Assembly (NCBI RefSeq): GCF_030285785.1
Contig: NZ_CP127247.1
Location: 1,387,501 to 1,451,500, forward strand
From: Parasedimentitalea psychrophila
Lineage (GTDB): Bacteria; Pseudomonadota; Alphaproteobacteria; Rhodobacterales; Rhodobacteraceae
Length of the DNA stretch: 64,000 nt
Reading direction: 5' to 3'
The notes beneath the pieces were generated by a model, which had not been told where the DNA came from, ran no database searches, and saw only the letters and a program-made list of their open reading frames with translations. The translations under genes and the position numbers were made by a program. Positions 19,329-58,408 of the stretch are shown here, piece after piece (position 1 is the first letter of the stretch; every line of letters begins with the position of its first letter).

Positions 19329-19401
19329 CGCCATGCGTAAGCATGGCGCCGGGCCCAACGGGAGGAGCGTCTCCGCCAGGAGACCGACGACGGGCGGGAG
19401 C
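19329..19401 (+). repeat. Structured intergenic element 1 (CCCAACGGG / ACGGGCGGGAG family)
   Basis: Order: hairpin A CGCCATGC-GTAA-GCATGGCG (19329-19348), conserved CCCAACGGGAGGAG, hairpin B GTCTCC-GCCA-GGAGAC (19369-19384), conserved GACGACGGGCGGGAGC. Five other copies in the window have the same order with different stem sequences. Confidence 0.8.
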
Positions 19402-19476
19402 GCCGAGAGCAAACAACCTTGATAGAGGGTCGAATTGATCTATGCCTTTGCATCGCGGCGCGATAGCACTGGGCCT

Positions 19477-20418
19477 ATGATAGACATCTTCTTTAGAACA
19501 CTGCCCTTTTTTGCCATTATCGGTCTCGGATACGGGGCGGGACGGACACGGTTTTTCAACGCCGAGGCGACCGCCTATCTGACCAAATTTGTATTCTATT
19601 TCGCACTGTCGGCGATGATTTTTCGATTTTCCGCCAACCTGTCCTTTGCCGAGATTTTCGATCCAAGGCTGATCATTGGCTATCTGGCTGGGACCATGGC
19701 GGTTTATTTGCTGGTGACGCTGGTCGCCACCCTGCGGGGGTTGGATATGCAGACCGCGGCGGTTGAGGCGCAGTGCGGCGCCATTGGCAATGTTGGGTTT
19801 CTCGGCCTGCCGATGATGGTGATCCTGTTTGGAGAGGCCTCGATCGGGCCGATGATGCTGGTGCTCAGCGTCGATCTGGTGGTGTTTTCCTCGTTGATCG
19901 TGATCCTGATCAATGCCGGTCGCGGGTCTGGGCTTACCGTGGCGACATTCAGGCTGGTGGCGGCTGGGCTGGTCAAGAACCCGATGATCGTCTCGATCTG
20001 TTGCGGGCTGAGCTGGTCAGCTCTGGCCTTGCCAATACCTGCCCCGGTAAATGAGTTCCTGACAATCCTGGGCGGTGCGGCCACTCCGGGGGCGCTGTTT
20101 GCTATCGGAGCGTCACTGGCAGCGGCATCAGCAGAGCGGGTGCAGATCGCGGTCTGGCTCAGCTTTGCCAAGCTGGTGGGGCACCCGTTACTGGTCGCAA
20201 TCGGCGTATTATGGCTGTTGCCGTTGGATGCCTATGCGGCCACCATTGTGATCTCGTCTGCGGCCCTGCCGGTGGCGGGGAATGTCTATATGCTGGCGCA
20301 ACACTATGGCGTAGCCCCACAACGGGTCTCGGCAACGATTCTGTTTTCCACCATGGCGTCGATCGTCACCGTGCCGATGGTGATCTCCTGGGTTGCCGCC
20401 CTGGTGGCGATCCCCTGA
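19477..20418 (+). CDS. AEC (auxin efflux carrier) family transporter
   Basis: 313 residues with ten hydrophobic helices in the AEC/PIN-like 5+5 layout; it starts MIDIFFRTLPFFAIIGLGYGAGR and includes GAIGNVGFLGLPMMVILFGEA and the repeat-two counterpart KNPMIVSICCGL. AEC proteins export small organic acids or related compounds across the inner membrane. The ATG at 19477 is preferred to an earlier in-frame start at 19435 because it begins the first membrane helix. No neighbour indicates the substrate. Confidence 0.88.
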   Translation: MIDIFFRTLPFFAIIGLGYGAGRTRFFNAEATAYLTKFVFYFALSAMIFRFSANLSFAEIFDPRLIIGYLAGTMAVYLLVTLVATLRGLDMQTAAVEAQCGAIGNVGFLGLPMMVILFGEASIGPMMLVLSVDLVVFSSLIVILINAGRGSGLTVATFRLVAAGLVKNPMIVSICCGLSWSALALPIPAPVNEFLTILGGAATPGALFAIGASLAAASAERVQIAVWLSFAKLVGHPLLVAIGVLWLLPLDAYAATIVISSAALPVAGNVYMLAQHYGVAPQRVSATILFSTMASIVTVPMVISWVAALVAIP

Positions 20419-20494
20419 GGCAGATCGGCGCGATTCGTCTTTATCCTTCGAAATCGCCGCAATTTCAGACGCGACATGTCCCCTTGCACTAGAC

Positions 20495-20518
20495 CCGCTG
20501 CCCGCTGCCGGGTAGCGG
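20495..20518. promoter_or_regulatory. Hairpin just upstream of fghA
   Basis: CCGCTGCCCG-CTGC-CGGGTAGCGG gives a 10-bp stem (one G-T pair) and a 4-base loop, 26 bases before the fghA ATG. There is no T-run, so it is either a leader structure or a weak end for the AEC transcript. Confidence 0.45.
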
Positions 20519-20544
20519 TAGGGCGAGCAATCCAGGAGAACTTT

Positions 20545-21378
20545 ATGGAAACCCTGTCGGAAAACAAAGCCTTTGGCGGCACCCAGGGTGTCTATCGACA
20601 CCCCAGCACCGCAACCAACTGCGATATGAGTTTTGGCCTGTTCCTGCCCGAGGAGGCGCGCGATGGTCCGGTGCCGGTCTTGTGGTATCTGTCGGGGCTG
20701 ACCTGCACCCATGAAAACGCCATGTCCAAGGCCGGGGCACAAAACTGGGCCGCCGAGCAGGGCATCGCGCTGGTGTTTCCGGATACCAGCCCTCGCGGCG
20801 AGGGGGTTGCTGACGACGAGGCCTATGATCTGGGTCAGGGCGCCGGATTTTACGTCAACGCCAGCCAGGCCCCCTGGGCGTCTCATTTCAACATGTGGGA
20901 CTATCTGGCCGATGAGCTGCCAGCGCTGCTGGGCGAAAAATTCTCTGTTGATCTGGACCGGCAGGCGATCACCGGACATTCGATGGGTGGCCACGGCGCG
21001 CTGACGCTGGCGATGGGGCTGCCGGGGCGGTTCCGCTCGGTGTCGGCCTTTGCGCCAATCTGCAACCCAAGTGCCAGCGATTGGGGCCGCAAGCAGCTCT
21101 CAGCCTATCTGGGCGAGGATGAGGCCGCTTGGGCCCGCCATGACGCCACCCTGATGATGCGTGAAACCGGGTTTGATGGCCCAATCCTGATCGACACTGG
21201 CACCACGGATCAATTCATCGACCTGTTGCAGCCCGAGGCCTTTGCCCAGGCGGTCACAGAGCGGCGGCAAGAGGCGACGCTGCGGCTGCAGCCTGGCTAT
21301 GACCACAGCTATTTCTTTGTCTCCACCTTCATCGAAGAGCATATCGCTTTTCACGCTGACGCGCTTTATCGGGACTGA
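20545..21378 (+). CDS. fghA: S-formylglutathione hydrolase
   Basis: 277 residues, esterase D family. LSGLTCTHENAM, the nucleophile elbow GHSMGGHGAL (Ser146) and the late histidine in GYDHSYFF are diagnostic. It hydrolyses S-formylglutathione to formate and glutathione, the second step of glutathione-dependent formaldehyde detoxification; the partner dehydrogenase gene is not in this window. An AGGAGA site precedes the ATG at 20545. It is followed by sthA after only three bases. Confidence 0.95.
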   Translation: METLSENKAFGGTQGVYRHPSTATNCDMSFGLFLPEEARDGPVPVLWYLSGLTCTHENAMSKAGAQNWAAEQGIALVFPDTSPRGEGVADDEAYDLGQGAGFYVNASQAPWASHFNMWDYLADELPALLGEKFSVDLDRQAITGHSMGGHGALTLAMGLPGRFRSVSAFAPICNPSASDWGRKQLSAYLGEDEAAWARHDATLMMRETGFDGPILIDTGTTDQFIDLLQPEAFAQAVTERRQEATLRLQPGYDHSYFFVSTFIEEHIAFHADALYRD

Positions 21379-21381
21379 TCC

Positions 21382-22851
21382 ATGCCACAGTACGACTATG
21401 ACCTTGTCATCATTGGCTCTGGCCCCTCGGGCCGGACTGCTGCCATTCAGGCAGGCAAGCTGAAACGCCGGGTTCTGGTGATCGACCGCCAAGACCGGCT
21501 TGGCGGCGTTTCGGTGCATACCGGCACTGTGCCCTCTAAAACCCTGCGCGAGACTGTGCTGAATCTCAGCGGTTGGCGCGAGCGCAGTTTCTATGGCCGC
21601 TCCTACCGGGTGAAGGATCAGATTGCCGCCGAGGACCTGAAGGCACGTCTGCATATGACGCTGGATCACGAGGTGGATGTGCTGGAACACCAGTTCAACC
21701 GCAACCATGTAGAATGGCTGCCGGGACTGGCGAAATTCACCGGGCCAAACGAGGTGGAAGTGGCCACCGAGGCCGGAGATATCAGCCGGGTCACTGGCAA
21801 GAACTTTCTGATCGCCACTGGCACCCGCACCTATCGTCCCGATGATGTACCGTTCAACGGCAAGACCATTGTCGACGGCGATGAATTCATTGAAATGGCC
21901 GAGATCCCCCGCTCGCTGATCGTGGTCGGCGCAGGTGTGATCGGGGTGGAATATGCCACCATGTTCTCGACCCTGGATGTGCGCGTCACCCTGATTGAAC
22001 CCCGCGACACGTTCCTCGACTTTATCGACAGCACTTTGATTCAGGAATTCACCCATCAGATTCGTGAAAATGGCGTCGACCTGCGCCTTGGCTCTGCCAT
22101 CGACAAGGTCGAGGATGCCGGCAGTCATGTCGAGGTGACCCTGGACAACGGCCGCCATGTACGCGGTGAAATGCTGCTGTTCGCCGCTGGCCGTATGGGC
22201 AATACCCAAGGCCTGAACCTGAAGGCGGTGGGGCTGGAAACCGATCATCGCGGACGGTTGAGCGTTGACCGCAAGACCTATCAGACCGAGGTGCCGCATA
22301 TCTATGCCACCGGCGATGTGATCGGCCATCCGTCGCTGGCCTCGACCTCGTTGCAGCAGGGTCGCGTTGCCGCCTGTCATGCGCTGGACACCCCGACCCT
22401 GCCGGAAAGCCCCTGGTACCCCTATGGCATCTACTCGGTGCCGGAAATGTCCACCTGTGGCATGTCCGAGGAAGAGCTGCAGGAGCGCGGCATCCCCTAT
22501 GAGGTCGGCGTGGCGCGGTTCCGCGAGACCTCACGCGGGCATATCATGGGGCTGGAACACGGCATGCTGAAGATGCTGATCAGCCTGAAGACCCGCCGGG
22601 TTTTGGGGGTGCAGATCGTCGGTGAAGGCGCCACCGAGCTGATCCACATTGGTCAGGCGGTGATGAACCTGCAGGGCACGGTGGACTACTTTGTGCAGAA
22701 CACCTTCAACTACCCAACCCTGGCCGAGGCCTATAAGGTCGCCGGTCTGGACGCCTTTAACCGGATGCCGATCCCAGAGCAGTTCAAGGTCGCCAAAGCG
22801 CCCAAGGCGGCGAACAAACCTGCGGCAGAATCCGACCAGGTCGCCAGCTAA
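21382..22851 (+). CDS. sthA: Soluble (Si-specific) NAD(P)+ transhydrogenase
   Basis: 489 residues. FAD-binding DLVIIGSGPSGRTAA, the NAD-binding VVGAGVIGVEYATMF, and HTGTVPSKTLRE, in which the redox-active cysteines of lipoamide dehydrogenase are replaced; this loss marks SthA. The C-terminal dimer domain ends in QNTFNYPTLAEAYKVAGL. It exchanges hydride between NADPH and NAD+ in the cytosol. It is directly downstream of fghA and shares one base with the next gene (TAATG). Confidence 0.94.
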   Translation: MPQYDYDLVIIGSGPSGRTAAIQAGKLKRRVLVIDRQDRLGGVSVHTGTVPSKTLRETVLNLSGWRERSFYGRSYRVKDQIAAEDLKARLHMTLDHEVDVLEHQFNRNHVEWLPGLAKFTGPNEVEVATEAGDISRVTGKNFLIATGTRTYRPDDVPFNGKTIVDGDEFIEMAEIPRSLIVVGAGVIGVEYATMFSTLDVRVTLIEPRDTFLDFIDSTLIQEFTHQIRENGVDLRLGSAIDKVEDAGSHVEVTLDNGRHVRGEMLLFAAGRMGNTQGLNLKAVGLETDHRGRLSVDRKTYQTEVPHIYATGDVIGHPSLASTSLQQGRVAACHALDTPTLPESPWYPYGIYSVPEMSTCGMSEEELQERGIPYEVGVARFRETSRGHIMGLEHGMLKMLISLKTRRVLGVQIVGEGATELIHIGQAVMNLQGTVDYFVQNTFNYPTLAEAYKVAGLDAFNRMPIPEQFKVAKAPKAANKPAAESDQVAS

Positions 22852-23306
22852 TGGCGCTGTATATTGATGCCGATGCCTGCCCGGTCAAGGACGAGGCCGA
22901 GCGGGTCACCAGCCGCCACAAGCTAAAGATGTATGTGGTTTCCAACGGTGGATTGCGCCCCTCGCGCAATCCATACGTGGAAAACATCATCGTCGACGCC
23001 GGCGCCGATGTGGCCGACATGTGGATCGCCGATCGCTGCGGCAAAGGCGATGTGGTGGTGACTGGGGACATTCCGCTGGCCGCCAAATGCATCGCGACCG
23101 GTGCGCGGGTGCTGCGCCACAACGGCGAGGCCTTCTCCGAGGCCAATATCGGCCAGCAACTGGCAATGCGCGATCTGATGGCCGATCTGCGTGCTGCCAA
23201 CCCACTGGGGGCTGGCGGCAGCGGCAAGGGCTTCACCAAGGCCGACCGCTCGCGATTTCTGGAGGCGCTGGAGCGCGAGATACGGGCGGCGGCGCGACAG
23301 GTGTAG
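22851..23306 (+). CDS. YaiI/YqxD family protein (DUF188)
   Basis: 151 residues, the typical length. It begins ALYIDADACPVKDEAERV, the DUF188 signature, with DMWIADRCGKGDVVVTGDIPLA in the middle and FTKADRSRFLEALE near the end. The fold resembles PIN-like nucleases, with several conserved aspartates, but the function is not established. The ATG uses the last base of the sthA stop, so the two are translationally coupled. Confidence 0.92.
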   Translation: MALYIDADACPVKDEAERVTSRHKLKMYVVSNGGLRPSRNPYVENIIVDAGADVADMWIADRCGKGDVVVTGDIPLAAKCIATGARVLRHNGEAFSEANIGQQLAMRDLMADLRAANPLGAGGSGKGFTKADRSRFLEALEREIRAAARQV

Positions 23307-23335
23307 TCAACTTCAATTGGCACGATTACCAAACC

Positions 23336-23635
23336 CTATACAGGGACAAACTCAATCCAGCCAAAACGACCCGAAGCCGCAAGAAATGCAGAAAACACAG
23401 CTATGGCCGCAAGCCAGTGGACAAAAGCCCTGAGACGTTTTCCCTCAACTGGAAACCAGCGAAATTTACGCAGCCATCCAATCACTATATCCATAATCAT
23501 TAGAACCAAGATGAAATGCCGCACAAAAACATACAGGAACAGTACGGTTAACGCGATTGACACAAAACTGTTCTGCGGTATGAACTGCCACGTCGCGTTG
23601 TTGGCGCTCGCCGAAAAATTGGTTTCCAAATTCAA
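23336..23635 (-). CDS. Small membrane protein, unrecognised
   Basis: Up to 99 residues. An AGGAG at 23636-23640 fits a TTG start either at 23635 (very tight) or at 23629 (seven-base spacing); no ATG start is available. Two hydrophobic stretches (FVSIALTVLFLYVFVRHFIL and FVHWLAAIAVFSAFLAAS) flank a basic loop, so it is probably a two- or three-helix inner-membrane protein. Base composition is distinctly AT-richer than its neighbours, which suggests recent acquisition. I do not recognise a family. Confidence 0.5.
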   Translation of the reverse strand: MNLETNFSASANNATWQFIPQNSFVSIALTVLFLYVFVRHFILVLMIMDIVIGWLRKFRWFPVEGKRLRAFVHWLAAIAVFSAFLAASGRFGWIEFVPV

Positions 23636-23680
23636 TCTCCTGAAAATTTATTATCAATAAAACATCGCCAGTTATCCGCC

Positions 23681-23764
23681 TCAGTGCTTGCCGATAACTG
23701 TAAGCTCAATATCAATTGCCCCCCCCCAGATCAACAACCGTTCCAAATCCTTGGCGCAGCCCAT
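23681..23764 (-). CDS. Possible 27-residue small protein with a G9 tract
   Basis: A strong GGAGGAG ribosome site stands just before the ATG at 23764. The frame reads MGCAKDLERL...IGKH and stops at 23681, 45 bases before the start of the small membrane protein on the same strand. A run of nine C (G on the coding strand) at 23719-23727 lies inside it, so slippage could alter the frame. Coding status is speculative; the support is the ribosome site and the operon-like position. Confidence 0.3.
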   Translation of the reverse strand: MGCAKDLERLLIWGGAIDIELTVIGKH

Positions 23765-23819
23765 TGCCACTCCTCCGGCTTTGCGCCACTGATCACGCAA
23801 ACACCACGCGAGGGTCAGC

Positions 23820-24782
23820 ATGAGCGCACAGGCTAAGGTCAATATCTGGGGCATTCTGGCCGCTCTGGGGGCGGGTATTTCCTTCTCTATCATCGATACC
23901 ATCGCCAAATTTCTCTCTGGTGACTACCCGCTGCACGAAATGGTTCTGGTTCGCTCGGTCATAGCGCTGATCGTGCTGCTGGCGGTCATTATGCCGCTTG
24001 AGGGCGGCTATCACCTGCTGCGCACCCACCAGCCCCGCCTGCATGTCCTGCGCTGTCTGGCGGTGCTGTTTGCCAATCTCTGTTTCTTCACCGGGCTGGC
24101 GCTGATGCCGCTGGCCGAGGCGGTGGCGATTGCCTTTGCCACACCGCTGATTGTCACTGCCCTGTCGGTGATTTTCCTGAAAGAAAAAGTAGGGATCTGG
24201 CGCTGGGGAGCGGTGGCGGTGGGGTTCCTGGGCGTGATTGTGATCATGCGTCCAGGCTCTGGCGCCTTTCAGCCCACCGCGATCCTGCCGTTTCTGGGCG
24301 CCTGTGGCTATGCCACGCTGCATGTGCTGACCCGGCGCGCAGGCGGCTCCGAGGCCGGCTCAACCCTGGCGTTCTATCCGATGTTTGGCTTTCTTCTGGT
24401 CAGCACACTGGTGGGCCTGACATTGGGCGATGGGCGGTTCTCTGACGGCAGCAACCCCGGCATTGATTTCATCCTGCGCGCCTGGATCTGGCCCGCACCG
24501 CAGGACTGGCCGCTGTTCATCGGCCTGGGCGTTGCCGCGTCGTTTGGCGGCTATCTGGTCGGTCAGGCCTACCGGCTGTGCGAGGCAGGGCTGGTGGCGC
24601 CGTTTGAATATATCGCGATGCCAATGGCGGTGCTCTGGGGGGTCATGGTGTTCAATGAGTGGCCAGAACCGCCAGTTTGGCTGGGCAGTGGCTTGATCAT
24701 TGGCTCGGGACTTGTTTCAGTCTGGCGTGAGACCCGTCTCCATCGCCCGCCCAGCCGCCCCCGGCCCCGCGCCAACGGATAG
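23820..24782 (+). CDS. DMT superfamily transporter (EamA domains)
   Basis: 320 residues with ten hydrophobic helices as two EamA repeats. The first includes LVRSVIALIVLLAVI and FTGLALMPLAEAVAIAFATPLIVTAL; the second ends in APFEYIAMPMAVLWGVMVFNEWP. Members of this group export amino acids or other metabolites across the inner membrane. A GAGGG site precedes the ATG. It is followed by the HAD gene after 13 bases, and then by the cyclodeaminase, forming a three-gene operon. Confidence 0.9.
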   Translation: MSAQAKVNIWGILAALGAGISFSIIDTIAKFLSGDYPLHEMVLVRSVIALIVLLAVIMPLEGGYHLLRTHQPRLHVLRCLAVLFANLCFFTGLALMPLAEAVAIAFATPLIVTALSVIFLKEKVGIWRWGAVAVGFLGVIVIMRPGSGAFQPTAILPFLGACGYATLHVLTRRAGGSEAGSTLAFYPMFGFLLVSTLVGLTLGDGRFSDGSNPGIDFILRAWIWPAPQDWPLFIGLGVAASFGGYLVGQAYRLCEAGLVAPFEYIAMPMAVLWGVMVFNEWPEPPVWLGSGLIIGSGLVSVWRETRLHRPPSRPRPRANG

Positions 24783-24795
24783 AAAGGATACTTTC

Positions 24796-26336: not shown

Positions 26337-26360
26337 CCTGACGGGCATCACAACAGGTGA

Positions 26361-26440
26361 TCTCCCGCCCGTTGTCAGGCATCTATATCTAGATGTCCTC
26401 CTCCCGTTGGGCCCGGCGCCACGCAAAGGCGTGGCGCGCC
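26361..26440 (-). repeat. Structured intergenic element 2 (minus orientation)
   Basis: On the minus strand: hairpin A GCGCCACGC-CTTT-GCGTGGCGC (26416-26437), CCCAACGGGAGGAG, hairpin B CATCTA-GATA-TAGATG (26380-26395), then GACAACGGGCGGGAG. Hairpin B has no sequence similarity to that of the other copies but sits in the same place. It lies just after the cyclodeaminase gene in a 315-base convergent gap. Confidence 0.8.
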
Positions 26441-26470
26441 CGCTCTCCACAGCCCGTTCGGCCTTAATAT

Positions 26471-26516
26471 CTTTCTCATTGTCAATAAATACCTAGGGGT
26501 CCGGGGCTAGCCCCGG
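26471..26516 (-). repeat. Copy 5 of 3'-end motif with adjacent CCGGGGC hairpin
   Basis: On the minus strand: CCGGGGC-TA-GCCCCGG (26501-26516), ACCCC, then AGGTATTTATTGACAATGAG and AAAG (26471-26494). The order matches 19231-19274 on the plus strand. It is 140-160 bases beyond the MFS gene stop in that gene's direction. Confidence 0.65.
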
Positions 26517-26519
26517 AAA

Positions 26520-26593
26520 CGCCGCATCGCGGCGCCATGCCCAAGCCCGCAGGGGTCATTGGCAAAGCCAATGAGCCGAGTGGGCGCGGGAGC
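26520..26593 (+). repeat. Structured intergenic element 3 (divergent copy)
   Basis: Hairpin A CGCCGC-ATC-GCGGCG (26520-26534), CCATGCCCAAGCCCGCAGGG, hairpin B TCATTGGC-AAA-GCCAATGA (26556-26574), then GAGTGGGCGCGGGAGC. The flanks are less conserved than in the other copies but the layout is the same. Nothing else is seen between here and the MFS gene. Confidence 0.7.
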
Positions 26594-26651
26594 ATTTCGG
26601 CCACACGGAAAATCACTGCTCTGAATTCCAAACGGCCCTAGAGTTAGGCCC

Positions 26652-27902: not shown

Positions 27903-27969
27903 AAGTGAGCTCCTGATATGCATCCCGAGACCTTACCGGCAACGAATCCAGCTCTCAAATCAGGATTTT

Positions 27970-29162: not shown

Positions 29163-29281
29163 GGGGCGCCGCCTGTAGGTTAGATCAGGGGGCGCCGCCC
29201 ACAGTATGGACTTAGGGGGCGCCGCCCACAGGTTAGGTTAGGGGGCGCCGCCCACAGGTTAGGTTAGGGGGCTCCGCCCCC
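29163..29281. repeat. Tandem 26-bp array (GGGGGCGCCGCCCACAGG...) between zapE and folC
   Basis: Five head-to-tail units start at 29163, 29188, 29215, 29241 and 29267. Units 3 and 4 are identical over 26 bases (GGGGGCGCCGCCCACAGGTT then AGGTTA); units 1, 2 and 5 are variants or truncated. Each unit can form a GGGCG-CC-GCCC hairpin. A CGCGGC-AA-GCCGCG hairpin (29284-29297) follows. There are no unique spacers, so it is not CRISPR. Confidence 0.85.
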
Positions 29282-29305
29282 GGCGCGGCAAGCCGCGCCT
29301 CCCCC

Positions 29306-40004: not shown

Positions 40005-40107
40005 GTGGGGGCTCCGGAGCAGGGGTATTTGCTGCCTTTTACAACCTCCCAGCAAGCGGGGAAACCGTTGTTATTCTGCACCGCATCAACGCGGGCCACA
40101 GCAGAGG

Positions 40108-40129
40108 CTTCTTTTTGCTAAAAATACTC
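40108..40129 (-). repeat. Copy 7 of 3'-end motif, overlapping the dnaE2 stop
   Basis: On the minus strand GAGTATTTTTAGCAAAAAG then AAG; its first bases GA are also the last two of the dnaE2 TGA stop. It is one base different from copy 1 and lies 104 bases before gpmI on the same strand. Confidence 0.7.
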
Positions 40130-43055
40130 AAATCGCCGCCTCTCGCCCAGCGCTGGGTCCAGGGTTCTGCGGCGTCAGGTGATCCCGCAACAACGCCAGC
40201 GGATGCGCCCTGAGCGACAATCGCATGGCAACATAATCCTCCACCACTTCTTCCCCCAGCGACATCCTCGGCAGCATCGCAGCAGGCTCATCTATCGCCT
40301 CCCCCTCCAGCCCTCGGGCAAACAGCGGCAGTGGCTTGACCGAGGCAATCGCCTTGGCCGCCCACAGCGCCTCGCGACGTCTCAGCCCTAGGCCGGCAAA
40401 AGCATCCGCCTCGGCCAGCCGCTCAATCACCGCAGGGGCCAGCCCCGCCTTGCGCCAGACATCGTCAATCTCGGTGTAGCCATTGCCACGGGCTGCGGTC
40501 AGCCAGCTGGCGTCCTCTTCCCGCAATCCCTTGATCTGGCGCAACCCCAGCCGCAGCGCCAGCCCACCGCGCCCGTCCGGCTCCATCACATTGTCCCAGA
40601 AACTGGCGTTGATGCAGATCGGCTGCACCTCGACCCCGTGTTGCCGCGCATCGCGCACGATCTGCGCCGGGGCATAAAACCCCATCGGCTGCGCATTCAG
40701 CAGGGCGCAGGCAAAAATGCCGGGATGGTGACACTTGATCCAGGCGCTGGCATAGACCAGCAGCGCAAAACTGGCGGCATGGCTTTCGGGAAATCCGTAC
40801 GAACCAAAACCCTCAATCTGGCTGAAACAACGCTCGGCAAACTCAGTCTCATACCCGTTGCGCGCCATGCCGCGCAGGAACAACGCCCGGAACTCGCTGA
40901 CATTGCCGTGTTTCTTGAAGGTCGCCAGCGAGCGCCGCAACCGGTCGGCCTGTTCCGGGGTGAAGCCGGCACCAACAATGGCAATCTGCATCGCCTGTTC
41001 CTGAAACAGCGGCACCCCCAGCGTCTTGCGCAGCACATCGCCCAGCGCATCCGAGGGCAGGCTCACCGGCTCTTCACCGTTGCGGCGGCGGATATAGGGA
41101 TGCACCATATCGCCCTGAATGGGTCCGGGCCGGATGATCGCCACCTCGATCACCAGATCATAGAATGTCCGCGGCTGCATGCGAGGCAGGAAATTCATCT
41201 GCGCCCGGCTCTCCACCTGAAACACCCCAATGCTGTCCGCCTTGCACAGCATATCATAAACCGCCGGATCCTCGGGCGGCAGGCTGGCCAGACTCCAGCT
41301 CTGGCGGTGATGGGTCTGGATCAGCTCAAACGCCTTGCGGATACAGGTCAGCATGCCCAGGCTCAGCACATCCACCTTGAGAATGCCCAGCGCGTCGATG
41401 TCGTCCTTATCCCAGCAGATCACCGTGCGCCCCTCCATGGTGGCGTTTTCAATCGGCACCAGCTCGTCCAGCCGACCATCGGTGATGATAAAGCCGCCCA
41501 CATGCTGCGACAGATGACGCGGAAAACCGATGATCTGATAGACCAGATCCATGGTTTGGCGCAGACGGAGATCGCTGGCATCCAGCCCGATTTCCGCCAT
41601 CCGCTGCGCCTCCAGCCCCTTGGCGCTGAAAAATCCCCAAAGCTGCGAGCTGAGCGCCGAAATGGTGTCCTCGCTCAGCCCCATGGCGCGGCCCACCTCG
41701 CGGATCGCCCGTTTGCCTCGGTAATGGATCACCGTGGCGCAGAGCCCGGCGCGGTGGCGGCCGTAGTGGTCATAGATATGCTGGATCACCTCCTCGCGCC
41801 GCTCGTGCTCAAAATCCACGTCGATGTCGGGCGGCTCGTCGCGGGCCTCGGAGACAAAGCGCTCAAACACCATGGTGCCGATCTCAGGGGAAACCGAGGT
41901 AACCCCCAGACAATAGCAAACAACCGAATTGGCCGCCGAGCCGCGCCCCTGACACAGGATGCCCCGGCCACGGGCAAAATGCACAATGTCGCGCACGGTC
42001 AGGAAATACGGTTCATAGCGCAGCTTGCCGATCAGGGTCAGCTCATGCTCCAGCATCGCCCGCACTTTGGCACTGACCCCGGCCGGGTAGCGCCAGGCCA
42101 GCCCCTCCAACGCCAGACGGCGCAGCCTCTCATCCGGAGCTTCACCATCAGCCGCTTCGCTGGGATACTCATAGCGCAGCTCATCCAGCGAAAAAGTCAG
42201 CTGCCCTGCCAGCACCCCGGCCCGGTCCACAGCGCCCTCATGACCGGCAAAGATCCGCCGCATCTCAGCCTCGGACCGCAGCCGCTGTTCACCATTGGCC
42301 AGCGCCGAGCGGCCCAATGCCTCGACCTTGATATGCAACCGGATCGCGCTCAGCACATCCGCCAGCCGCCGCCGCGCCCCGTGATGCATCCGCGGCGCAG
42401 CACTGGCCAGCGTGGGAATACCCAAATCAGTAGCCCAGGCCGTAATCTGTGCAAACCACGCGCCATCAGCGCCGTCATAAGCCGGAGCCATCAACAGATG
42501 CATCCGGTCCCCAAAGCAGCGCGTCAAACCGTCCATATGCGGCAACCACCCGCCCGCGCCGCCCTGCCGCCGCAGCGCTTGCGGTACCAGCAGCAGATGC
42601 AGGCCTTCGGAGAACTGCAGCAGGTCACATAAGTGCAGGGTGCAGCCCCCCTTAGCCGCCCTTAGCCGCCCGCGTGAGATCAGCCGGCACAGGTTGCCCC
42701 AGCCCACACGGGTTTTCGGCAAGGCGACGACAGGTGGTGCATCGGTGAACACCAGCTTTGCCGCCGGGATCAGCCGTGGCATATCATAGATCGGAAAGCT
42801 GGCCGGCCGAACCATGCCATCCGGACAGGGCGGCCCAATCGGATCATGGTCCTTATCCCAAGCCAGCCGCTCGCGCACCCGACGGGCAATATCGCGAGCC
42901 TCGGTATGGGCGCGCACGATACCACTAACCGAGTTCTCATCCGCAATCGCCAGCGCCGGGATCCCCAGCGCCAGCGCACGCTGAACATACTCCTCCGGGT
43001 GGGACGCCCCGGTGAGAAAGGTAAAGTTAGAGAGATTCGCAAATTCGGCAAACAT
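40128..43055 (-). CDS. dnaE2: DnaE2 (ImuC), error-prone DNA polymerase III alpha subunit
   Basis: 975 residues. It starts with the PHP-domain sequence FAEFANLSNFTFLTGASHPEEYVQRA and contains the polymerase catalytic aspartates in PPDIDVDFEHERREEVIQHIY and IDALGILKVDVLSLGMLTC. DnaE2 carries out translesion synthesis with ImuB in the SOS mutasome. The length is about 100 residues short of some homologues because the C-terminal tail is reduced. An ATTC-N7-GTTC site lies 12 bases before the start. imuB is 23 kb away on the same strand. Confidence 0.95.
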   Translation of the reverse strand: MFAEFANLSNFTFLTGASHPEEYVQRALALGIPALAIADENSVSGIVRAHTEARDIARRVRERLAWDKDHDPIGPPCPDGMVRPASFPIYDMPRLIPAAKLVFTDAPPVVALPKTRVGWGNLCRLISRGRLRAAKGGCTLHLCDLLQFSEGLHLLLVPQALRRQGGAGGWLPHMDGLTRCFGDRMHLLMAPAYDGADGAWFAQITAWATDLGIPTLASAAPRMHHGARRRLADVLSAIRLHIKVEALGRSALANGEQRLRSEAEMRRIFAGHEGAVDRAGVLAGQLTFSLDELRYEYPSEAADGEAPDERLRRLALEGLAWRYPAGVSAKVRAMLEHELTLIGKLRYEPYFLTVRDIVHFARGRGILCQGRGSAANSVVCYCLGVTSVSPEIGTMVFERFVSEARDEPPDIDVDFEHERREEVIQHIYDHYGRHRAGLCATVIHYRGKRAIREVGRAMGLSEDTISALSSQLWGFFSAKGLEAQRMAEIGLDASDLRLRQTMDLVYQIIGFPRHLSQHVGGFIITDGRLDELVPIENATMEGRTVICWDKDDIDALGILKVDVLSLGMLTCIRKAFELIQTHHRQSWSLASLPPEDPAVYDMLCKADSIGVFQVESRAQMNFLPRMQPRTFYDLVIEVAIIRPGPIQGDMVHPYIRRRNGEEPVSLPSDALGDVLRKTLGVPLFQEQAMQIAIVGAGFTPEQADRLRRSLATFKKHGNVSEFRALFLRGMARNGYETEFAERCFSQIEGFGSYGFPESHAASFALLVYASAWIKCHHPGIFACALLNAQPMGFYAPAQIVRDARQHGVEVQPICINASFWDNVMEPDGRGGLALRLGLRQIKGLREEDASWLTAARGNGYTEIDDVWRKAGLAPAVIERLAEADAFAGLGLRRREALWAAKAIASVKPLPLFARGLEGEAIDEPAAMLPRMSLGEEVVEDYVAMRLSLRAHPLALLRDHLTPQNPGPSAGREAAI

Positions 43056-43110: not shown

Positions 43111-43182
43111 GCACCGGGCCGCAGGCGCGGTGCCACGCCCAACGGGCGGAGCCCCGGTCAGGGGCGACAACGGGCGGGAGCC
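43111..43182 (+). repeat. Structured intergenic element 4
   Basis: Hairpin A GCACCG/CGGTGC (43111-43133), CACGCCCAACGGGCGGAG, hairpin B GCCCC-GGTCA-GGGGC (43151-43165), GACAACGGGCGGGAG. This is the only copy in a divergent gap (dnaE2 and DUF1203), 80 bases before DUF1203. Confidence 0.8.
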
Positions 43183-49381: not shown

Positions 49382-49457
49382 GCCAAGCCCCCTCAAAAAC
49401 GGCGCCCTCCCGCGCCTGTCAGGTGAACAGGCTCCGCCAGTTGAACCTGACAGTCTT

Positions 49458-49584
49458 GGGCCGGGCGCCGCGCAAAGCGCGGCGCGGGTGGCGCCCGGCC
49501 CGCATGAAATGCTCCTGTGGAGCATTTCATGCCACGCCCAACGGGCGGAGCACCTCCGGCAGGAGGTCGAGGACGGACGGGAGA
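49458..49584 (+). repeat. Structured intergenic element 5 (largest copy)
   Basis: An outer stem pairs GGGCCGGGCGCC (49458-49469) with GGCGCCCGGCCC (49490-49501) and encloses GCGC-AAA-GCGC. Then hairpin A GCATGAAATGCTCC / GGAGCATTTCATGC (49502-49532), CACGCCCAACGGGCGGAG, hairpin B ACCTCC-GGCA-GGAGGT (49552-49567) and GACGGACGGGAG. It fills part of the 344-base convergent gap after polA. No gene or other feature is seen in the remainder. Confidence 0.85.
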
Positions 49585-49962: not shown

Positions 49963-50056
49963 GGATGAAGCTCTTTTAAAATTTCTGTCCTATCATACAT
50001 GCAGCAATTGGAATGAAACCTCCAGTGCGCGCATGCAGGCCCCTGTGTTCAGCTCA

Positions 50057-50809: not shown

Positions 50810-50936
50810 CAAAAACCTTCCCGGTTAAACTGGTCGACCCCAGAGGCGAGATCAGAGTTGATCGATTAGTGCCACAAGTTGATCCGATTGTGGCGCGTTC
50901 ATTCTTTCAAATTGCGGATACTTGACGGCAGCCCCC

Positions 50937-51530: not shown

Positions 51531-51582
51531 TTCTCTCCAGCACGATAGAGTACCACTATATATTGGCGACAAGGGGAATGTC

Positions 51583-52590: not shown

Positions 52591-53474
52591 CCTCTCCCCG
52601 CCTCTCCCAAGCCACCGGGCTCAGACGCCGCGCCGAAATTGAGGCCGGCAGCCTGCCGCCGTTGCTGGTGCAGGCCGAACAGTTGGCGGGCTCGGTATTG
52701 CTGGGAGAGCATGGCCGCAGGCGGGCCGGGATGGGCGATGATTTTTGGCAATACCGTCCGGCACAGCCCGGCGACAGCCGCAATATGATCGACCATCGCC
52801 GCTCGGCGCGCGGCGATCAGCAGTTCATCCGGGAACGCGAGTGGCAGATTGCCCAGACGGTGCATGTCTGGGTGGATCAGGGCGGCTCGATGCGCTTTGC
52901 CTCCAAACCCGATCTGCCGCAAAAGATCGACCGCGCCCGAAAACTGGCGCTGGCGGCCTCGATCCTGATGCTGCGCGGTGGTGAGCGGGTTGGCCTGACA
53001 GGCACCTCGCTGCCGCCGCGCAGTGGCAATATGCAGGTCCTGCGCATGGCCGAGGCGTTCAGCCTCAACGATGATACCGACTATGCGCCCCCCGAACATC
53101 ACGCCATGATCCCCCATGCCCGCGGGTTGTTCATTTCCGATTTCCTTGGCCCCTTTGACGAATTGCAACTGGCGCTTAGCAAGGCCGCTGACCGTGGATT
53201 GCGCGGTGTTCTGCTACAAGTCCTCGATCCCAGCGAAGAGGAGTTTCCCTTTTCCGGCCGCACCCTGTTTGAGAGCGTCGGTGGCGGGCTCTGCCATGAA
53301 ACGCTCAAGGCCTCGGCGCTGCGCGACCGCTATCTTGAACGGCTGGCCGAACGACGTGATGGGCTGGAAACCCTGTGCCGTGCCACCGGCTGGCAGATCG
53401 GGCTGCATCACACCGGAGACAGTGCGCAGGCGGCGCTGTTGTGGCTGTATCACGCATTAGAAAGAACCCGATAA
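52587..53474 (+). CDS. DUF58 domain protein
   Basis: 295 residues from a GTG that overlaps the MoxR stop. DUF58 signature: GDDFWQYRPAQPGDSRNMIDHRRSARGDQQFIRER, then VHVWVDQGGSM, the first MIDAS-like aspartate and serine of a von Willebrand fold, and ISDFLGPF. DUF58 proteins are the common partners of MoxR ATPases. The stop shares one base with the following start. Confidence 0.93.
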   Translation: MTSPRLSQATGLRRRAEIEAGSLPPLLVQAEQLAGSVLLGEHGRRRAGMGDDFWQYRPAQPGDSRNMIDHRRSARGDQQFIREREWQIAQTVHVWVDQGGSMRFASKPDLPQKIDRARKLALAASILMLRGGERVGLTGTSLPPRSGNMQVLRMAEAFSLNDDTDYAPPEHHAMIPHARGLFISDFLGPFDELQLALSKAADRGLRGVLLQVLDPSEEEFPFSGRTLFESVGGGLCHETLKASALRDRYLERLAERRDGLETLCRATGWQIGLHHTGDSAQAALLWLYHALERTR

Positions 53475-56245
53475 TGACACTGCTGGCTGGCATCGGTTTC
53501 ACCACGCCCTGGCTGCTGCTGGGGTTGCTGGCGCTGCCCATCCTGTGGCTGCTGCTGCGCGCCGTGCCACCTGCACCGGTGCGTCGGGTGTTCCCGGCGG
53601 TCACCCTGCTGCTGGGGCTCAGCGACGACGAGAGCCTGTCAGACCGCACCCCGTGGTGGCTGTTGCTGCTGCGCATGCTGGCAGTTGCCGCGGCGATCAT
53701 CGGCCTGTCGGGGCCGGTGCTGAACCCGGCGCCCTCAACCGCCGGACGCGGGTCGCTGCTGCTGGTTCTGGATGCCAGCTGGGTCGGCGCGAACGACTGG
53801 CGGCAGCGCCGCGAACAGATCACCAGCACGCTGACCGAGGCCGGCCGTGCCGGTCGCACCGTGGCGGTGCTGCGGCTGACCGCACCGGAGCCGCTGCAGT
53901 TCCAATCCGCCGATGTCTGGCGCAGCCGGGTGGCGGGGCTGGGACCGCAGCCGTGGCAGCCAAACCCGGACCAGATAGCCACCGCGCTGGATCACATAGC
54001 TGCGGTGGACGCAGGGTTTGACACCCTGTGGTTTGCCGATGGGCTGGAATACCCCGACCGGGATCAGCTGATCTCGGCCTTGCGGGCGCGCGGAGAGTTG
54101 CAGGTGCATCAGAGCAGTGCCAACAGGCTCGGACTACTGCCGGCTCAAGTCGCAGACGGCGCTATTGAGCTGACGGTGATTCGCAGCCACACCAGCGCCG
54201 AGCAGCAGGTCACCGTGCTGGCCCAGGGTGTTGATCCCGGTGGCACCATGCGGGTGCTGGCCTCGGCCAGTGTTGATTTTACCGCAGGCGCCGACAGGGC
54301 CAGTGCCAGGCTGATCCTGCCGTCGGAACTGCGCGCCCGGATCACCCGGTTTGAACTGCAGCGGATACGGTCCGCCGGCGCCGTGGCCCTGACTGATGAC
54401 AGCCTGCGCCGCCGCGAAGTGGCGCTGATCTCGTCGCAGACCGACAACGAAGGTCTGGTGCTGTTGTCGCCAGTGCACTACCTGCGCCAGGCCTTGCAAC
54501 CGACCGCTGAATTGTTCGAAGGCGGGCTGGGCGATCTGTTGCCAGCCAATCCGGATGTCATCATTCTGGCGGATGTGGCGCGACTGGCCCAAACCGAAGA
54601 AGAACAGCTGACCGAATGGGTCGAAAAGGGCGGCATGTTGCTGCGTTTTGCCGGCCCACGGCTGGCGGCCAGCGATATCTCACGCAGCGAAGAACACCCA
54701 CTGATGCCGGTTCGGTTGCGCAGTGGCGGCCGCAGCCTGGGCGGCGCGATGAGCTGGGGTGAGCCCAAGACCCTGGCGCCGTTCCAGCAGGACTCGCCGT
54801 TTTATGGCCTGACCATCCCCGAAGAGGTCACCGTGAGTTCACAAGTGGTGGCGCAACCCGATCCCAGTCTGGCGGACCGGGTGATTGCCGAATTGGCCGA
54901 TGGCACTCCGCTGGTCACCCGCAAACCGCTGGGTCAGGGGCAGGTGGTTCTGTTTCATGTGACCGCTAATGCCGAATGGACCAGCCTGCCGCTGTCTGGG
55001 TTGTTTGTCGATATGCTGGAGCGGCTGGCGGTCTCGACCGCCGCCAAGCCACCCGCCGCCGATGAACTGGAGGGCACGGTCTGGACGCCGATCAAGGTGC
55101 TGGACGGCTTTGGCCGCCTTAGCGAGGCCGACACCCTGTCCGGCGTTGACGGCCCAGATCTGATGGAGGCCCCAGTAGGCCCTGATTTGCGCCCCGGCCT
55201 GTATGACAGTGGCAGCCGCAAACTGGCGCGCAATGTTCTGCGGGCGGGCGACCAGCTGCAGCCTGCGATCTGGCCCCATGATGTGCCGGTGATCCACGCT
55301 GCTGCCTCTGCCGAACGCGCCTTGGGTGGCGCGCTGATCAGTTTGGCACTGGTGCTGCTGGCACTGGACGTTGCCGCCTCGCTGGCGCTGTCGGGGCTGA
55401 TGCACCTGTCGCGCACCGCCGCCCTGGTGCTGGGTCTGGCTACGGCGGCTTGGCTTGGCCTGCCCCCCCATGCCGCCCTGGCGCAACAGGGCGAAAATCA
55501 GCTTGGCCTCAGCTCGGAACTGGCACTGGCGCATGTGCTGACTGGCGATGATCAGGTCGATGAAATCGCCCATAGCGGGCTGCGCGGGCTGTCCAATACG
55601 CTGTCTTTTCGCACCTCAATCGAGCCCTCCCTGCCGGTGGGGGTAGATCTGGAGCGCGATGAGCTGGCGTTTTATCCACTGCTGTATTGGCCGATCACGC
55701 CAGACCAGCCGCGCCCCTCGGCGGCAGCCTATACCCGGCTGAACGCCTATCTGCGCACGGGCGGCATGATCTTGTTCGACACCCGAGACGCCAATCTGGT
55801 GGGCGCCGGAGCCAGCAGTGCAAACGCCCGAAAATTGCAGCAACTGGCCCGGTCACTGGATATTCCTCCGCTGGAACCGCTGCCCGCCGACCATGTGCTG
55901 ACGCGCGCCTTTTACCTGTTGCAGAACTTTCCCGGCCGTCACCAGCGTGGCGAGCTTTGGGTCGAAGCCGCCCCCGCCGACGCCGAGCATATCGAGGGCA
56001 TGCCGTTCCGCAATCTCAACGATGGGGTGACGCCGGTGGTGATCGGCGGCAATGACTGGGGCGCCGCCTGGGCGGTGGACAACAATGGACGCCCCCGGTT
56101 GCCGGTGGGGCGTGGCTTTGCCGGCGAACGCCAGCGCGAGCTGGCCTATCGCTTTGGGGTCAATCTGGTGATGCATGTGCTGACCGGCAATTACAAATCC
56201 GATCAGGTCCATGTGCCTGCGCTGCTGGACAGGTTGGGCCAATGA
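53474..56245 (+). CDS. Membrane protein with BatA-like N-terminus and DUF4159 C-terminus
   Basis: 923 residues. The N-terminus (about 1-80) is the BatA/aerotolerance type: GFTTPWLLLGLLALPILWLLLRAVPP and a second helix at about 60-80. A VWA-like region follows (SLLLVLDASWVGANDW), a long periplasmic stretch, then two membrane helices at about 620-665 and the DUF4159 domain (about 672-923), with RTGGMILFDTRDANL and DHVLTRAFYLLQNFPGRH. It is likely anchored to the inner membrane. It is coupled on both sides: one shared base upstream and ATGA downstream. Confidence 0.9.
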   Translation: MTLLAGIGFTTPWLLLGLLALPILWLLLRAVPPAPVRRVFPAVTLLLGLSDDESLSDRTPWWLLLLRMLAVAAAIIGLSGPVLNPAPSTAGRGSLLLVLDASWVGANDWRQRREQITSTLTEAGRAGRTVAVLRLTAPEPLQFQSADVWRSRVAGLGPQPWQPNPDQIATALDHIAAVDAGFDTLWFADGLEYPDRDQLISALRARGELQVHQSSANRLGLLPAQVADGAIELTVIRSHTSAEQQVTVLAQGVDPGGTMRVLASASVDFTAGADRASARLILPSELRARITRFELQRIRSAGAVALTDDSLRRREVALISSQTDNEGLVLLSPVHYLRQALQPTAELFEGGLGDLLPANPDVIILADVARLAQTEEEQLTEWVEKGGMLLRFAGPRLAASDISRSEEHPLMPVRLRSGGRSLGGAMSWGEPKTLAPFQQDSPFYGLTIPEEVTVSSQVVAQPDPSLADRVIAELADGTPLVTRKPLGQGQVVLFHVTANAEWTSLPLSGLFVDMLERLAVSTAAKPPAADELEGTVWTPIKVLDGFGRLSEADTLSGVDGPDLMEAPVGPDLRPGLYDSGSRKLARNVLRAGDQLQPAIWPHDVPVIHAAASAERALGGALISLALVLLALDVAASLALSGLMHLSRTAALVLGLATAAWLGLPPHAALAQQGENQLGLSSELALAHVLTGDDQVDEIAHSGLRGLSNTLSFRTSIEPSLPVGVDLERDELAFYPLLYWPITPDQPRPSAAAYTRLNAYLRTGGMILFDTRDANLVGAGASSANARKLQQLARSLDIPPLEPLPADHVLTRAFYLLQNFPGRHQRGELWVEAAPADAEHIEGMPFRNLNDGVTPVVIGGNDWGAAWAVDNNGRPRLPVGRGFAGERQRELAYRFGVNLVMHVLTGNYKSDQVHVPALLDRLGQ

Positions 56246-58284
56246 CACAGATTATTCTCTTTGATCCGCTGGTGCCCTGGGTACTGATCTGGGGGCTCGC
56301 GGCCCTGTCGCTGATCAGCATTGGCGTTGCCCTTTGGCGGCGCTTGTCCGGCTGGGCCTTGCGGGGGTTGGCGGCGCTGGTGCTGATCGCCGCCCTGTGC
56401 GGGCCCGTCTATCAGGTCGAAGACCGGGCACCGCTGAGCGACATCGTACTGGTGGTGGCGGATGAAACCGCCAGCAACCAGCTATCCGACCGCCCGACCC
56501 AGATGGCAGCGGCCAAAGCGGCTCTTGCCAGCCAGCTGGCAGATCGCCCCAACACCGAGACCCGCTGGATAACGCTTGGCGATGGCGAAGGCGACACCGG
56601 CTCGCAACTGATGGGGGCAATCGCCGCGGCACTGGCCGAAGAGCCGCGCGCCCGGATTGCCGGCATTATCGCGCTGTCGGATGGTCAGGTCCACGATATC
56701 CAAGACGCGCCTGACCTGCCGGCCCCGCTGCATCTGTTGGCGACCGGCAAAGAGACCGACTGGGACCGCCGCCTGATCCTGCGCAATGCCCCCGGCTTTG
56801 CCATTATCGGTGAACCGGTGACCCTGACACTGCGCATTGAGGATCAGGGCGCAGTGCCGGACAACAACTTGCTGGCCGCGCTGGAGATATCGATCGACGG
56901 CGCAACCCCGCAACGGTTCTCACTTCCCATCGGCACCGATATCGACCTGCCGCTGACTTTGCCGCACGGCGGACGCAATGTGATCCAGTTCACCGTGCCC
57001 ACCGAACAGGGCGAGCTGACCGGCCGCAACAACACCGCGCTGGTGCAGATCAACGGCGTACGGGACCGGTTGCGGGTGCTGCTGGTCTCGGGCGAGCCAC
57101 ACCCCGGCAGCCGCACCTGGCGCAACCTGCTGAAATCCGACAGCGCGGTGGATCTGGTCCATTTCACCATCCTGCGGCCGCCGGAAAAGCAGGACGGGGT
57201 GCCGGTGGACGAGCTGTCGCTGATCGCCTTTCCCACCCGTGAGTTGTTTTTGGAAAAGATCGACGATTTTGACCTGATCATCTTTGACCGCTATCAGCGG
57301 CGCGGCATTTTACCGGCGATCTATCTGGATAATGTGGCCAATTATGTAACCAACGGCGGCGCTGTTCTTGTCGCCGCAGGGCCGGATTTTGCCACCGCCG
57401 ACAGTATTTACCGCTCGCCCCTGTCAATGGTTCTGCCCGCGCGCCCGACAGCCCGGGTGATCGAAGATCCCTATCAGCCTGTGGTCACCGAGCTTGGGAA
57501 ACGACACCCGGTCACCGCCGATCTGGGCGACGCCGCAAACTGGGGGCGATGGCTGCGCCAAATCGAGGTGGACCAACCGCAAGGCCATACCCTGATGTCT
57601 GGCATCGAGGATCGCCCGCTGCTGGTGCTGAACCGGGTTGGCGAGGGCCGTGTGGCGCTGCTGACCTCGGATCACGCCTGGCTGTGGAGCCGGGGCTATG
57701 AGGGCGGCGGCCCGCAACTGGAGCTGCTGCGTCGGCTGGCCCATTGGATGATGAAAGAGCCTGAATTGGAAGAGCAGGCCCTTTGGGCCGAGGCCAACGG
57801 CCAGAGGATGCGTATCCGGCGCCGCAGCCTGGACGATTCGGTCGGCAAGGTCACCGTCACCCACCCCGATGGCAGCACCGTAGATCTGGACTTGACCGAA
57901 ACCGGTCCGGGACAATGGGAAACCCAGTATGACGGCCCCGAGATCGGCCTCTACCGCCTGACCGAAGGCGCGCTGACAGCCGTCATCGGCCTCGGCCCTG
58001 CCGCCCCGCGTGAATTCGAGGAAACCATTGCCACCCTGCAGATCCTGCACCCGGTGATCAAACCCTCAGGTGGCGGGTTGCTGCCCCTGCAGGACGGATT
58101 GCCCGTTCTGAGGAACGTCCGCGCCGGGCGCCCGGCGGCAGGCCGCGGCTGGATCGGCCTGACGCCGCGCAAGGCCTACGAAACCCTGTCGGTGGTGCAA
58201 AGCCAATTGCTGCCGCCCTGGCTGCTGTTGCTGCTGTCCAGCTTTTTCATCGCCCTTGGATGGATCCGAGAGGGACGGCGTTAA
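56242..58284 (+). CDS. Large membrane protein with glutamine-amidotransferase-like domain
   Basis: 680 residues. Two helices lie at the N-terminus (LVPWVLIWGLAALSLISIGVAL, LRGLAALVLIAALCGPVY) and one at the C-terminus (LPPWLLLLLSSFFIALGWI). Between is a VWA-like part (DIVLVVADETASNQL), beta-sandwich region, and an amidotransferase-like part (YVTNGGAVLVAAGPDF and GEGRVALLTSDHAWLWSRGYEGGGP) without a clear catalytic cysteine. It is the last gene of the MoxR operon; its function is unknown but it is presumably an envelope-linked partner of the DUF4159 protein. Confidence 0.88.
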   Translation: MTQIILFDPLVPWVLIWGLAALSLISIGVALWRRLSGWALRGLAALVLIAALCGPVYQVEDRAPLSDIVLVVADETASNQLSDRPTQMAAAKAALASQLADRPNTETRWITLGDGEGDTGSQLMGAIAAALAEEPRARIAGIIALSDGQVHDIQDAPDLPAPLHLLATGKETDWDRRLILRNAPGFAIIGEPVTLTLRIEDQGAVPDNNLLAALEISIDGATPQRFSLPIGTDIDLPLTLPHGGRNVIQFTVPTEQGELTGRNNTALVQINGVRDRLRVLLVSGEPHPGSRTWRNLLKSDSAVDLVHFTILRPPEKQDGVPVDELSLIAFPTRELFLEKIDDFDLIIFDRYQRRGILPAIYLDNVANYVTNGGAVLVAAGPDFATADSIYRSPLSMVLPARPTARVIEDPYQPVVTELGKRHPVTADLGDAANWGRWLRQIEVDQPQGHTLMSGIEDRPLLVLNRVGEGRVALLTSDHAWLWSRGYEGGGPQLELLRRLAHWMMKEPELEEQALWAEANGQRMRIRRRSLDDSVGKVTVTHPDGSTVDLDLTETGPGQWETQYDGPEIGLYRLTEGALTAVIGLGPAAPREFEETIATLQILHPVIKPSGGGLLPLQDGLPVLRNVRAGRPAAGRGWIGLTPRKAYETLSVVQSQLLPPWLLLLLSSFFIALGWIREGRR

Positions 58285-58325
58285 CTTTGGTCCTGACCAA
58301 CTGCGCTCAGTGACCTGCATCCCAA

Positions 58326-58408
58326 GGCTCCCGCCCGTCGTTGAACTCCTGACGGAGATCGGCCTTCCGTTGGGGGTGGCGCCGCGCAAAGCGCGGCGCC
58401 ACCCCCAA
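58326..58408 (-). repeat. Structured intergenic element 6 (minus orientation)
   Basis: An 18-bp perfect stem pairs 58370-58387 (TTGGGGGTGGCGCC start) with 58391-58408 around loop AAA. Then, on the minus strand, CCCAACGG, hairpin B CTCC-GTCA-GGAG (58346-58357) and GACGGGCGGGAGCC. It occupies much of the 196-base convergent gap and could end both the MoxR operon and pbpC. Confidence 0.85.

Follow-up and report, generated by a model that had tools for sequence, protein, structure and literature searches.

A dispersed two-hairpin structured repeat at gene 3' ends in Rhodobacteraceae

The 64,000-nucleotide stretch of the Parasedimentitalea psychrophila chromosome analysed here (the window) carries copies of a dispersed structured repeat whose unit, here called an arm, consists of a first hairpin (A), the box GCCCAA, a second, copy-specific hairpin (B), and the box GCGGGAG. 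In the wide sense the repeat is similar to repetitive extragenic palindromic sequences and bacterial interspersed mosaic elements (REP/BIME), with many intergenic palindromic copies present as single arms and inverted pairs. The copies lie just downstream of genes, chiefly where two genes converge, and the strand that folds is the G-rich one, read from hairpin A to GGGAG. Quite possibly this repeat of the Rhodobacteraceae acts as a structure at the 3' ends of transcripts, which is the reading we favour; we infer that the folded strand is RNA, that it affects termination or stability, and that it may switch between two folds.

Copies were identified with two covariance models, R1, built from five sequences (three from the window and two from elsewhere in the same genome), and R2, whose alignment of 92 arms, recovered with R1 from named genomes, contains no window sequence. 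R1 gives 11 matches in the window at E <= 10 and, across the whole 5.0 Mb genome, 68 arm matches at E <= 1. With R2, nine arms of the window score E <= 0.05, and five of these reach E <= 1.7e-6. Candidate scoring was limited (150 of 2175 in the own genome for the 68-arm count, at most 120 per genome in the R1 survey, and at most 33 per genome in the R2 survey), and the copy counts are therefore lower bounds; 7 of 160 arms were left unparsed. Many matches are overlapping plus and minus pairs with a common hairpin A, hence the choice of the arm as the unit, with CTCCCG lying within 130 nt upstream of hairpin A in 36 of the 68 own-genome arms and absent there from the remaining 32. Two flavours of arm are present, a C type (CCCAACGGGMGG...GACGGGCGGGAG) and a G type (CCCAAG...CGCGGGAG). 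Individual motifs do not exceed chance at the mismatch levels tried, with 12 occurrences of ACGGGCGGGAGC compared with 14.4 expected and 24 of CCCAACGGGMGGAG compared with 19.7; it is the compound structure alone that is significant.

The initial annotation had listed six elements of a single layout, and for five of these, 19329(+), 26361(-), 43111(+), 49502(+), and 58327(-), the order of hairpin A, box 1, hairpin B, and box 2 is borne out (R2 E <= 1.7e-6), with stems that vary in sequence yet stay paired in all five C-type arms. The sixth, 26520(+), lacks CCCAACGGGMGGAG and ACGGGCGGGAGC, reads CCCAAGCCCGCAGGGG and TGGGCGCGGGAGC in their place, and is an arm of the G type. The flanking boxes are conserved overall, as had been described, except that box 1 at 58361 has three mismatches (CCCAACGGAAGGCC) and box 2 deviates to ACGGGCGGGAGA at 26361 and to ACGGACGGGAGA at 49573. 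The list was also incomplete, with three more arms located at 19175-19228(-), 49431-49485(-), and 58379-58458(+).

In alignments fitted to the model, and hence leaning toward its structure, 92.7% of 1239 cells are paired across the 92 named arms and all 15 of 15 pairs are changed on both sides somewhere, with a covariation score of 0.536 compared with 0.130 for shuffled controls (0 of 500 reaching it) and at most 0.088 for slid controls; the 55 own-genome arms score 0.383, compared with 0.112 shuffled and at most 0.079 slid. An alignment-free comparison of 119 C arms gives their hairpin B stems a score of 13.1, compared with 7.9 for shuffles of the same bases. The initial annotation had named a lack of covariation once more copies were added as grounds for refutation; this outcome did not arise, and the proposal of a dispersed structured family is upheld by the 68 own-genome matches, by covariation far above the shuffled and slid controls, and by compensatory changes between orthologues.

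Amongst congeners, the element is kept at five of five window sites in genome G003 (~84% identical DNA) and at all four of the sites covered by the contig of G007 (~94% identical DNA). Relative to G003, both sides of a pair have changed from A-T to G-C in hairpin A of 49502 and from C-G to T-A in that of 43111, two pairs have changed on both sides in hairpin A of 58327, and the outer stem of 58379 has changed from GTCTGC/GCAGAC to GTCTGT/ACAGAC. Elsewhere, an entire hairpin B is swapped at one site (L034 compared with L070), and an orthologous gap in another genus carries an arm in the other orientation (L109, L105). Comparisons that were too short or had too few anchors were left out (w49 and w43 with L124, w19 with L186, L031 with L100, and L011 with L142 and L165). 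Stems that change while staying paired suggest a working structure, not debris.

Were the two strands to fold alike, G.U and A.C mismatches in the stem interior should be found at the same frequency. Read from hairpin A to GGGAG, the hairpin B interiors contain 47 G.U and 8 A.C mismatches in 135 distinct stems, and 41 and 3 in a second set of 78 stems from 12 other genera; pooled, 92 G.U face 11 A.C in 222 stems (p 4.5e-17, with related copies not independent). The second set (80 stretches, 83 arms found by pattern, 78 new distinct stems, and three duplicates dropped) is not wholly independent, with at least G060 and G112 also present in an exact-pattern scan, of whose 119 stretches the 80 listed were searched with R1. 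Tetraloops are similarly one-sided, with GNNA in 49 of 70 and TNNC in none, and in the second set GNNA in 29 of 37 and TNNC again in none. Hairpin A shows no strand bias (5 G.U and 9 A.C), as is expected of a part serving both directions. By gene context, G.U exceeds A.C by 24 to 1 in '++' gaps, 43 to 5 in convergent gaps, and 13 to 3 in '--' gaps, a trend that suits RNA without proving it. The suggestion of a functional RNA in the initial annotation is compatible with this strand test, although G.T is also the milder mismatch in DNA, and the test therefore indicates a single strand, not specifically RNA, and cannot separate RNA from single-stranded DNA.

Gene context was taken from a simple purpose-made gene caller, not from annotation, with 44 arms lacking a clear neighbour within 450 nt set aside as '?' (18 in the own genome and 19 in named genomes; 10 in a later count), and since the loci were mostly picked for carrying elements, only the make-up of gap classes is compared. 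Gaps of 60-500 bp with an element comprise 120 convergent, 75 tandem, and 10 divergent gaps, compared with 56, 205, and 150 respectively for gaps without an element in the same sequences (Fisher p 3e-30 and 4e-20). The gene facing the GGGAG end has its stop codon at a median distance of 18-23 nt from single arms and 28-49 nt from paired arms, and the corresponding medians beyond hairpin A are 69-102 nt and, with the other arm included, 99-138 nt. Of 315 gene ends that carry an element, 32 have a U-run terminator in the sense direction, compared with 67 of 317 without an element (p 1.8e-4), a deficit that holds although element-bearing gaps are longer.

Transcript ends are the most likely use of the arms. 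Once transcription has continued beyond the stop codon, hairpin A and, after it, hairpin B would form in the transcript shortly before it enters the neighbouring gene in antisense; formation of the two would end or stabilise the transcript, and inverted paired arms would serve both directions. As read from the sequence, the boxes are complementary, such that GCCC-AA...GC-GGGAG can close hairpin B by CCC/GGG around an AA/GC loop, to which GGAGGAG and CGACGAC of the C arms could add tandem G.A pairs. In inverted pairs, the boxes can also pair across arms (TTGGGC with GCCCAA, and CTCCCGC with GCGGGAG) to give a cloverleaf, and the paired arms at 58326-58462 can fold in this manner on either strand (RNA z -9.4 for the minus and -10.8 for the plus strand; DNA z -9.3 and -11.0). 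It is conceivable, if on the unlikely side, that the repeat represents a bidirectional element of transcript 3' ends of a new class, which lacks a U-run, pairs its boxes within an arm or across an inverted pair as a cloverleaf, and has spread as a repeat, replacing classical terminators in some Rhodobacteraceae to separate convergent transcripts.

Several observations weigh against a role at transcript ends. Own-genome C arms alone hold 7 G.U and 3 A.C mismatches (p 0.34), and a cruder count that includes stem edges gives 20 and 23 for these arms, compared with 72 and 33 for the named C arms. In triloops neither strand is preferred (6 GNA and 10 TNC of 38 in the second set), and among tetraloops GNCA prevails over the RNA-stable GNRA (the latter 4 of 29 GNNA loops in the second set), a composition that fits DNA hairpins at least as well. 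The G.U excess persists in '--' gaps, where no gene runs along the folded strand, although '--' singles reach only 5 to 3. The GGGAG end of single arms lies close to the stop of the opposing gene, and tandem singles face '--' 29 times and '++' 12 times; the element therefore seems tied to the gene that has the non-folded strand in its mRNA. Within convergent gaps alone, U-run terminators number 25 of 240 compared with 20 of 112 (p 0.060), the terminator deficit does not differ between directions, and no consistent U-run or T-run follows hairpin B or GGGAG in the printed arms when inspected by eye. Furthermore, other pairs replace hairpin B of the C arm in the minus-strand minimum free energy fold of 58326-58462, and the folding of single arms is modest (z -0.9 to -2.9 for three arms).

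The main rival, which we consider unlikely, is a non-autonomous mobile element. Modelled on HUH transposases and integron integrases that act on folded sites, it supposes that an enzyme other than a REP-associated tyrosine transposase (RAYT) would recognise the folded G-rich strand as single-stranded DNA, with copies that fold being the ones copied. The folded-strand evidence applies equally to DNA, the GNNA loops accept any third base, and the distribution is patchy and multi-copy, with R2 matches in 21 of 149 family genomes (a single genome for each genus, counting the window's own). R1 matched 12 of 41 genomes, namely all eight of the genus (22-66 arms, with the most in G003, at least 66, and in the own genome G000, at least 54) and 4 of the 17 remaining family genera, with no match in 16 genomes of other families. 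Among the matches listed for the exact-pattern scan, record titles give Rhodobacteraceae, Rhodobacterales, Alphaproteobacteria, or genus names, the genera presumably belonging to the Rhodobacteraceae. Hairpin B is also more alike within than between genomes (a difference of 0.075 compared with a permutation maximum of 0.028, for 91 arms in six genomes), however this likeness is uneven, being clear in G096 and G014 and absent in G060 and G061, and it would be expected from copying, gene conversion, or shared descent.

The involvement of a RAYT-type enzyme proposed in the initial annotation was rejected, with the domain Y1_Tnp (PF01797) absent from G000 and G003, the two element-richest of the R1-surveyed genomes, and from four more of the 12 element-bearing genomes, and with no element match in the three loci inspected, each 2-3.4 kb long, out of 24 listed matches to Y1_Tnp. 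The presence of Y1_Tnp in the other 6 of 12 bearing genomes, compared with 0 of 13 non-bearing family genomes (p 0.005) and 5 of 29 of all non-bearing genomes surveyed (p 0.052), counts against this rejection and in favour of a mobile element, and there may be a loose link. Against a mobile element, alongside the lack of Y1_Tnp in the two richest genomes, stands the retention in place of window copies in two congeners, and no clean insertion junction was found at three window sites in seven relatives (G001, G002, G004, G005, G006, G012, and G014), only presence, decay, rearrangement, or absence, in a survey of 20 stretches that covers not every site in every relative and leaves out L220 (G004). 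At the 58327 site, the element is intact in G001 and reduced to a decayed half in G005, and none was seen in G002 and G006 (both rearranged there), G012, and G014 (where the stretch ends soon after the stop). Additionally, both arms of inverted pairs favour reading outward, and thus from opposite strands of a single element (24 to 1 for C arms and 14 to 2 for the other arms), which also counts against a mobile element.

An element working at the level of DNA, as a cruciform or protein-binding site for nucleoid organisation or the insulation of convergent genes and denser in the origin-proximal half, is improbable. On the own chromosome (C1 of G000, with dnaA at C1:1492111), 36 of 47 merged elements lie in the half nearer dnaA (Kolmogorov-Smirnov p 6e-5), and a bias towards the origin half is also seen in G003 for 31 of 66 arms, those listed on the main contig (p 0.03); this origin bias may merely mirror the conserved core genes located there. 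The unbiased mismatches of hairpin A suit such an element, the strand asymmetry of hairpin B does not. A replication-strand preference (~27 of 44 arms one way, counted by eye) was not used as evidence.

A family of trans-acting small RNAs akin, for instance, to the Rhodobacter cuckoo (CcsR) RNAs is quite improbable; the repeat resembles these in its occurrence in Rhodobacteraceae and in a motif on one strand similar to CUCCUCCC, which we take to be the CcsR motif. The reverse strand of the C-type arm reads CTCCTCCC beside hairpin B (26398-26411), however this is the non-folded strand, the opposite one being folded here, and the window has no match to Rfam 15 at the gathering threshold. Moreover, the accessible part of PMC10253847 describes CcsR RNAs as co-transcribed with a DUF1127 gene, whereas the present repeat consists of dozens of dispersed copies at gene ends and not of one operon with such a gene. 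Lastly, a repeat with no function, in which template-switch mutation perfects palindromes and gives paired changes without selection, is highly improbable, as although paired changes and the whole-hairpin swap between L034 and L070 would look alike in this case, template-switch repair should make no difference between G.U and A.C, which here stand at 92 to 11, and the conserved boxes and gene-end location are left unexplained.

The favoured reading of a REP/BIME-like repeat at transcript ends may be set against known systems. REP/BIME and the REPINs of Pseudomonas and Escherichia, which carry a GTAG tag and are associated with RAYT, similarly consist of short GC-rich hairpins with a conserved tag, arranged as singles or inverted pairs in tens of intergenic copies, often downstream of genes. 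In contrast to these, the present repeat has two hairpins per arm, a hairpin B that differs in most copies, and no Y1_Tnp in the two element-richest of the R1-surveyed genomes, and its tag, on the 3' side, is not GTAG-like, reading GCGGGAG on the folded strand and CTCCCGC on the other. Intrinsic (bidirectional) terminators between convergent genes share the location, hairpins readable both ways, and paired evolution, however they differ from this dispersed repeat family with its conserved boxes and no consistent U-run. Integron attC sites likewise conserve structure while varying in sequence, and GCCCAAC fits what we take to be the attC core, RYYYAAC; an attC-like site was rejected, as the cores stand in the opposite order, with GTTGGGC ahead of GCCCAAC, and the C is missing from G-type arms.

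Below the Rfam thresholds, RT-15 scores 20.5-25.6 bits (threshold 82) in three of eight loci and Scr6106 scores 37 (threshold 52.5) in one, and both were rejected as chance; RVT_1 is absent in G000, G003, and G096 and present in G060 and G014. The CGTC-tagged REPs, as described in the accessible part of Di Nocera 2013 (PMC3733652), are mostly alphaproteobacterial, form head-to-head dimers downstream of genes, and apparently have no dedicated transposase. Host, head-to-head pairs, and gene-downstream location are shared by the present repeat, however the CGTC REPs of that description have 8-9 bp stems starting with A/T pairs and a CCA-like tail, whereas here the stems vary freely, CGTC is internal and confined to C-type arms, and a second hairpin is present. 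Assignment to the CGTC REPs was rejected, with the arms lacking the terminal CGTC, the A/T stem start, and the CCA-like tail. No named family with the arm layout was found in Rfam 15 (the window, and ten element loci at a permissive threshold) or in the open-licence PubMed Central literature searched, and the accessible part of a Ruegeria pomeroyi small RNA study (PMC4809877) describes no repeated family.

Table 1. Arms of the repeat in the window (positions count from the first nucleotide of the window).
Feature	Position	Strand	Details
G-type arm with own hairpin A	19175..19228	-	R1 34.6 bits, R2 E 5.8e-4; inverted partner of 19329; lies 17 nt past a plus-strand stop codon; present in G003, most of its hairpin A lost in G007
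C-type arm	19329..19401	+	R1 84.5 bits, R2 E 2e-11; hairpin A 19329-19348, box 1 CCCAACGGGAGGAG 19354-19367, hairpin B 19369-19384, box 2 ACGGGCGGGAGC 19390-19401
C-type arm	26361..26437	-	R1 77.1 bits, R2 E 2.9e-10; hairpin B CATCTA/TAGATG
G-type arm	26519..26593	+	R1 E 0.14, R2 E 0.042; inverted partner of 26361; present in G003 and G007
Single C-type arm	43111..43181	+	R1 45.6 bits, R2 E 1.7e-6; divergent gap (rare context)
G-type arm with hairpin A	49407..49485	-	R1 and R2 matches; model match 49431-49485, CTCCCG end at 49407
C-type arm	49502..49584	+	R1 54 bits, R2 E 2.6e-7; long hairpin A GCATGAAATGCTCC/GGAGCATTTCATGC
C-type arm of inverted pair	58327..58399	-	R1 89.2 bits, R2 E 9.6e-11; hairpin A (58379-58399) common to the 58379(+) arm
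G-type arm of inverted pair	58379..58458	+	R1 and R2 matches; pair region 58326-58462

Among plasmid records, the 58326-58462 pair has one match, at 79% across 60% of its length, in NZ_CP033223.1 of Parasedimentitalea marina, with no annotated feature. In G006 (G006:C29:93222-105268), the blocks adjoining the 49.5-58.3 kb segment are inverted relative to the window, with one junction beside the 49.4 kb element and the other at the 58.4 kb site, which is element-less in G006; the repeats may promote rearrangement. Another GC-rich hairpin repeat (GTCCGGGGC..GCCCCGG type) lies between the arms of the 19175/19329 and 26361/26519 pairs, at 19229-19262 and 26483-26530 in opposite orientations, with GGTATTTT..CAAGAAGAA beside it at 19250, and looks like a repeated intrinsic terminator. 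Its tail is resembled by a dispersed 31-nt repeat with TTCTTTTTGC..AAATACTC at 714-744, 14131-14161, and 40101-40131, and a local tandem of GGGGCGCCGCCCACAGGTTAGGTTAG-like units occupies 29163-29283. Elsewhere in the own genome, L043 504-670 shares stretches of ~80 nt at 94-96% identity with the named loci L190 and L155, in which they are repeated, and these may be a distinct repeat that has spread recently.

The usual account of REP-like repeats is that they are signals for transposition, or else leftovers. In the repeat described here, the ratio of G.U to A.C points to a requirement for one strand to fold, across many copies and several genera, despite differing stems. A descriptive repeat thereby becomes a testable one: it can be asked whether convergent genes of these GC-rich bacteria end their transcripts there, or whether a single-strand recombinase keeps the repeats.

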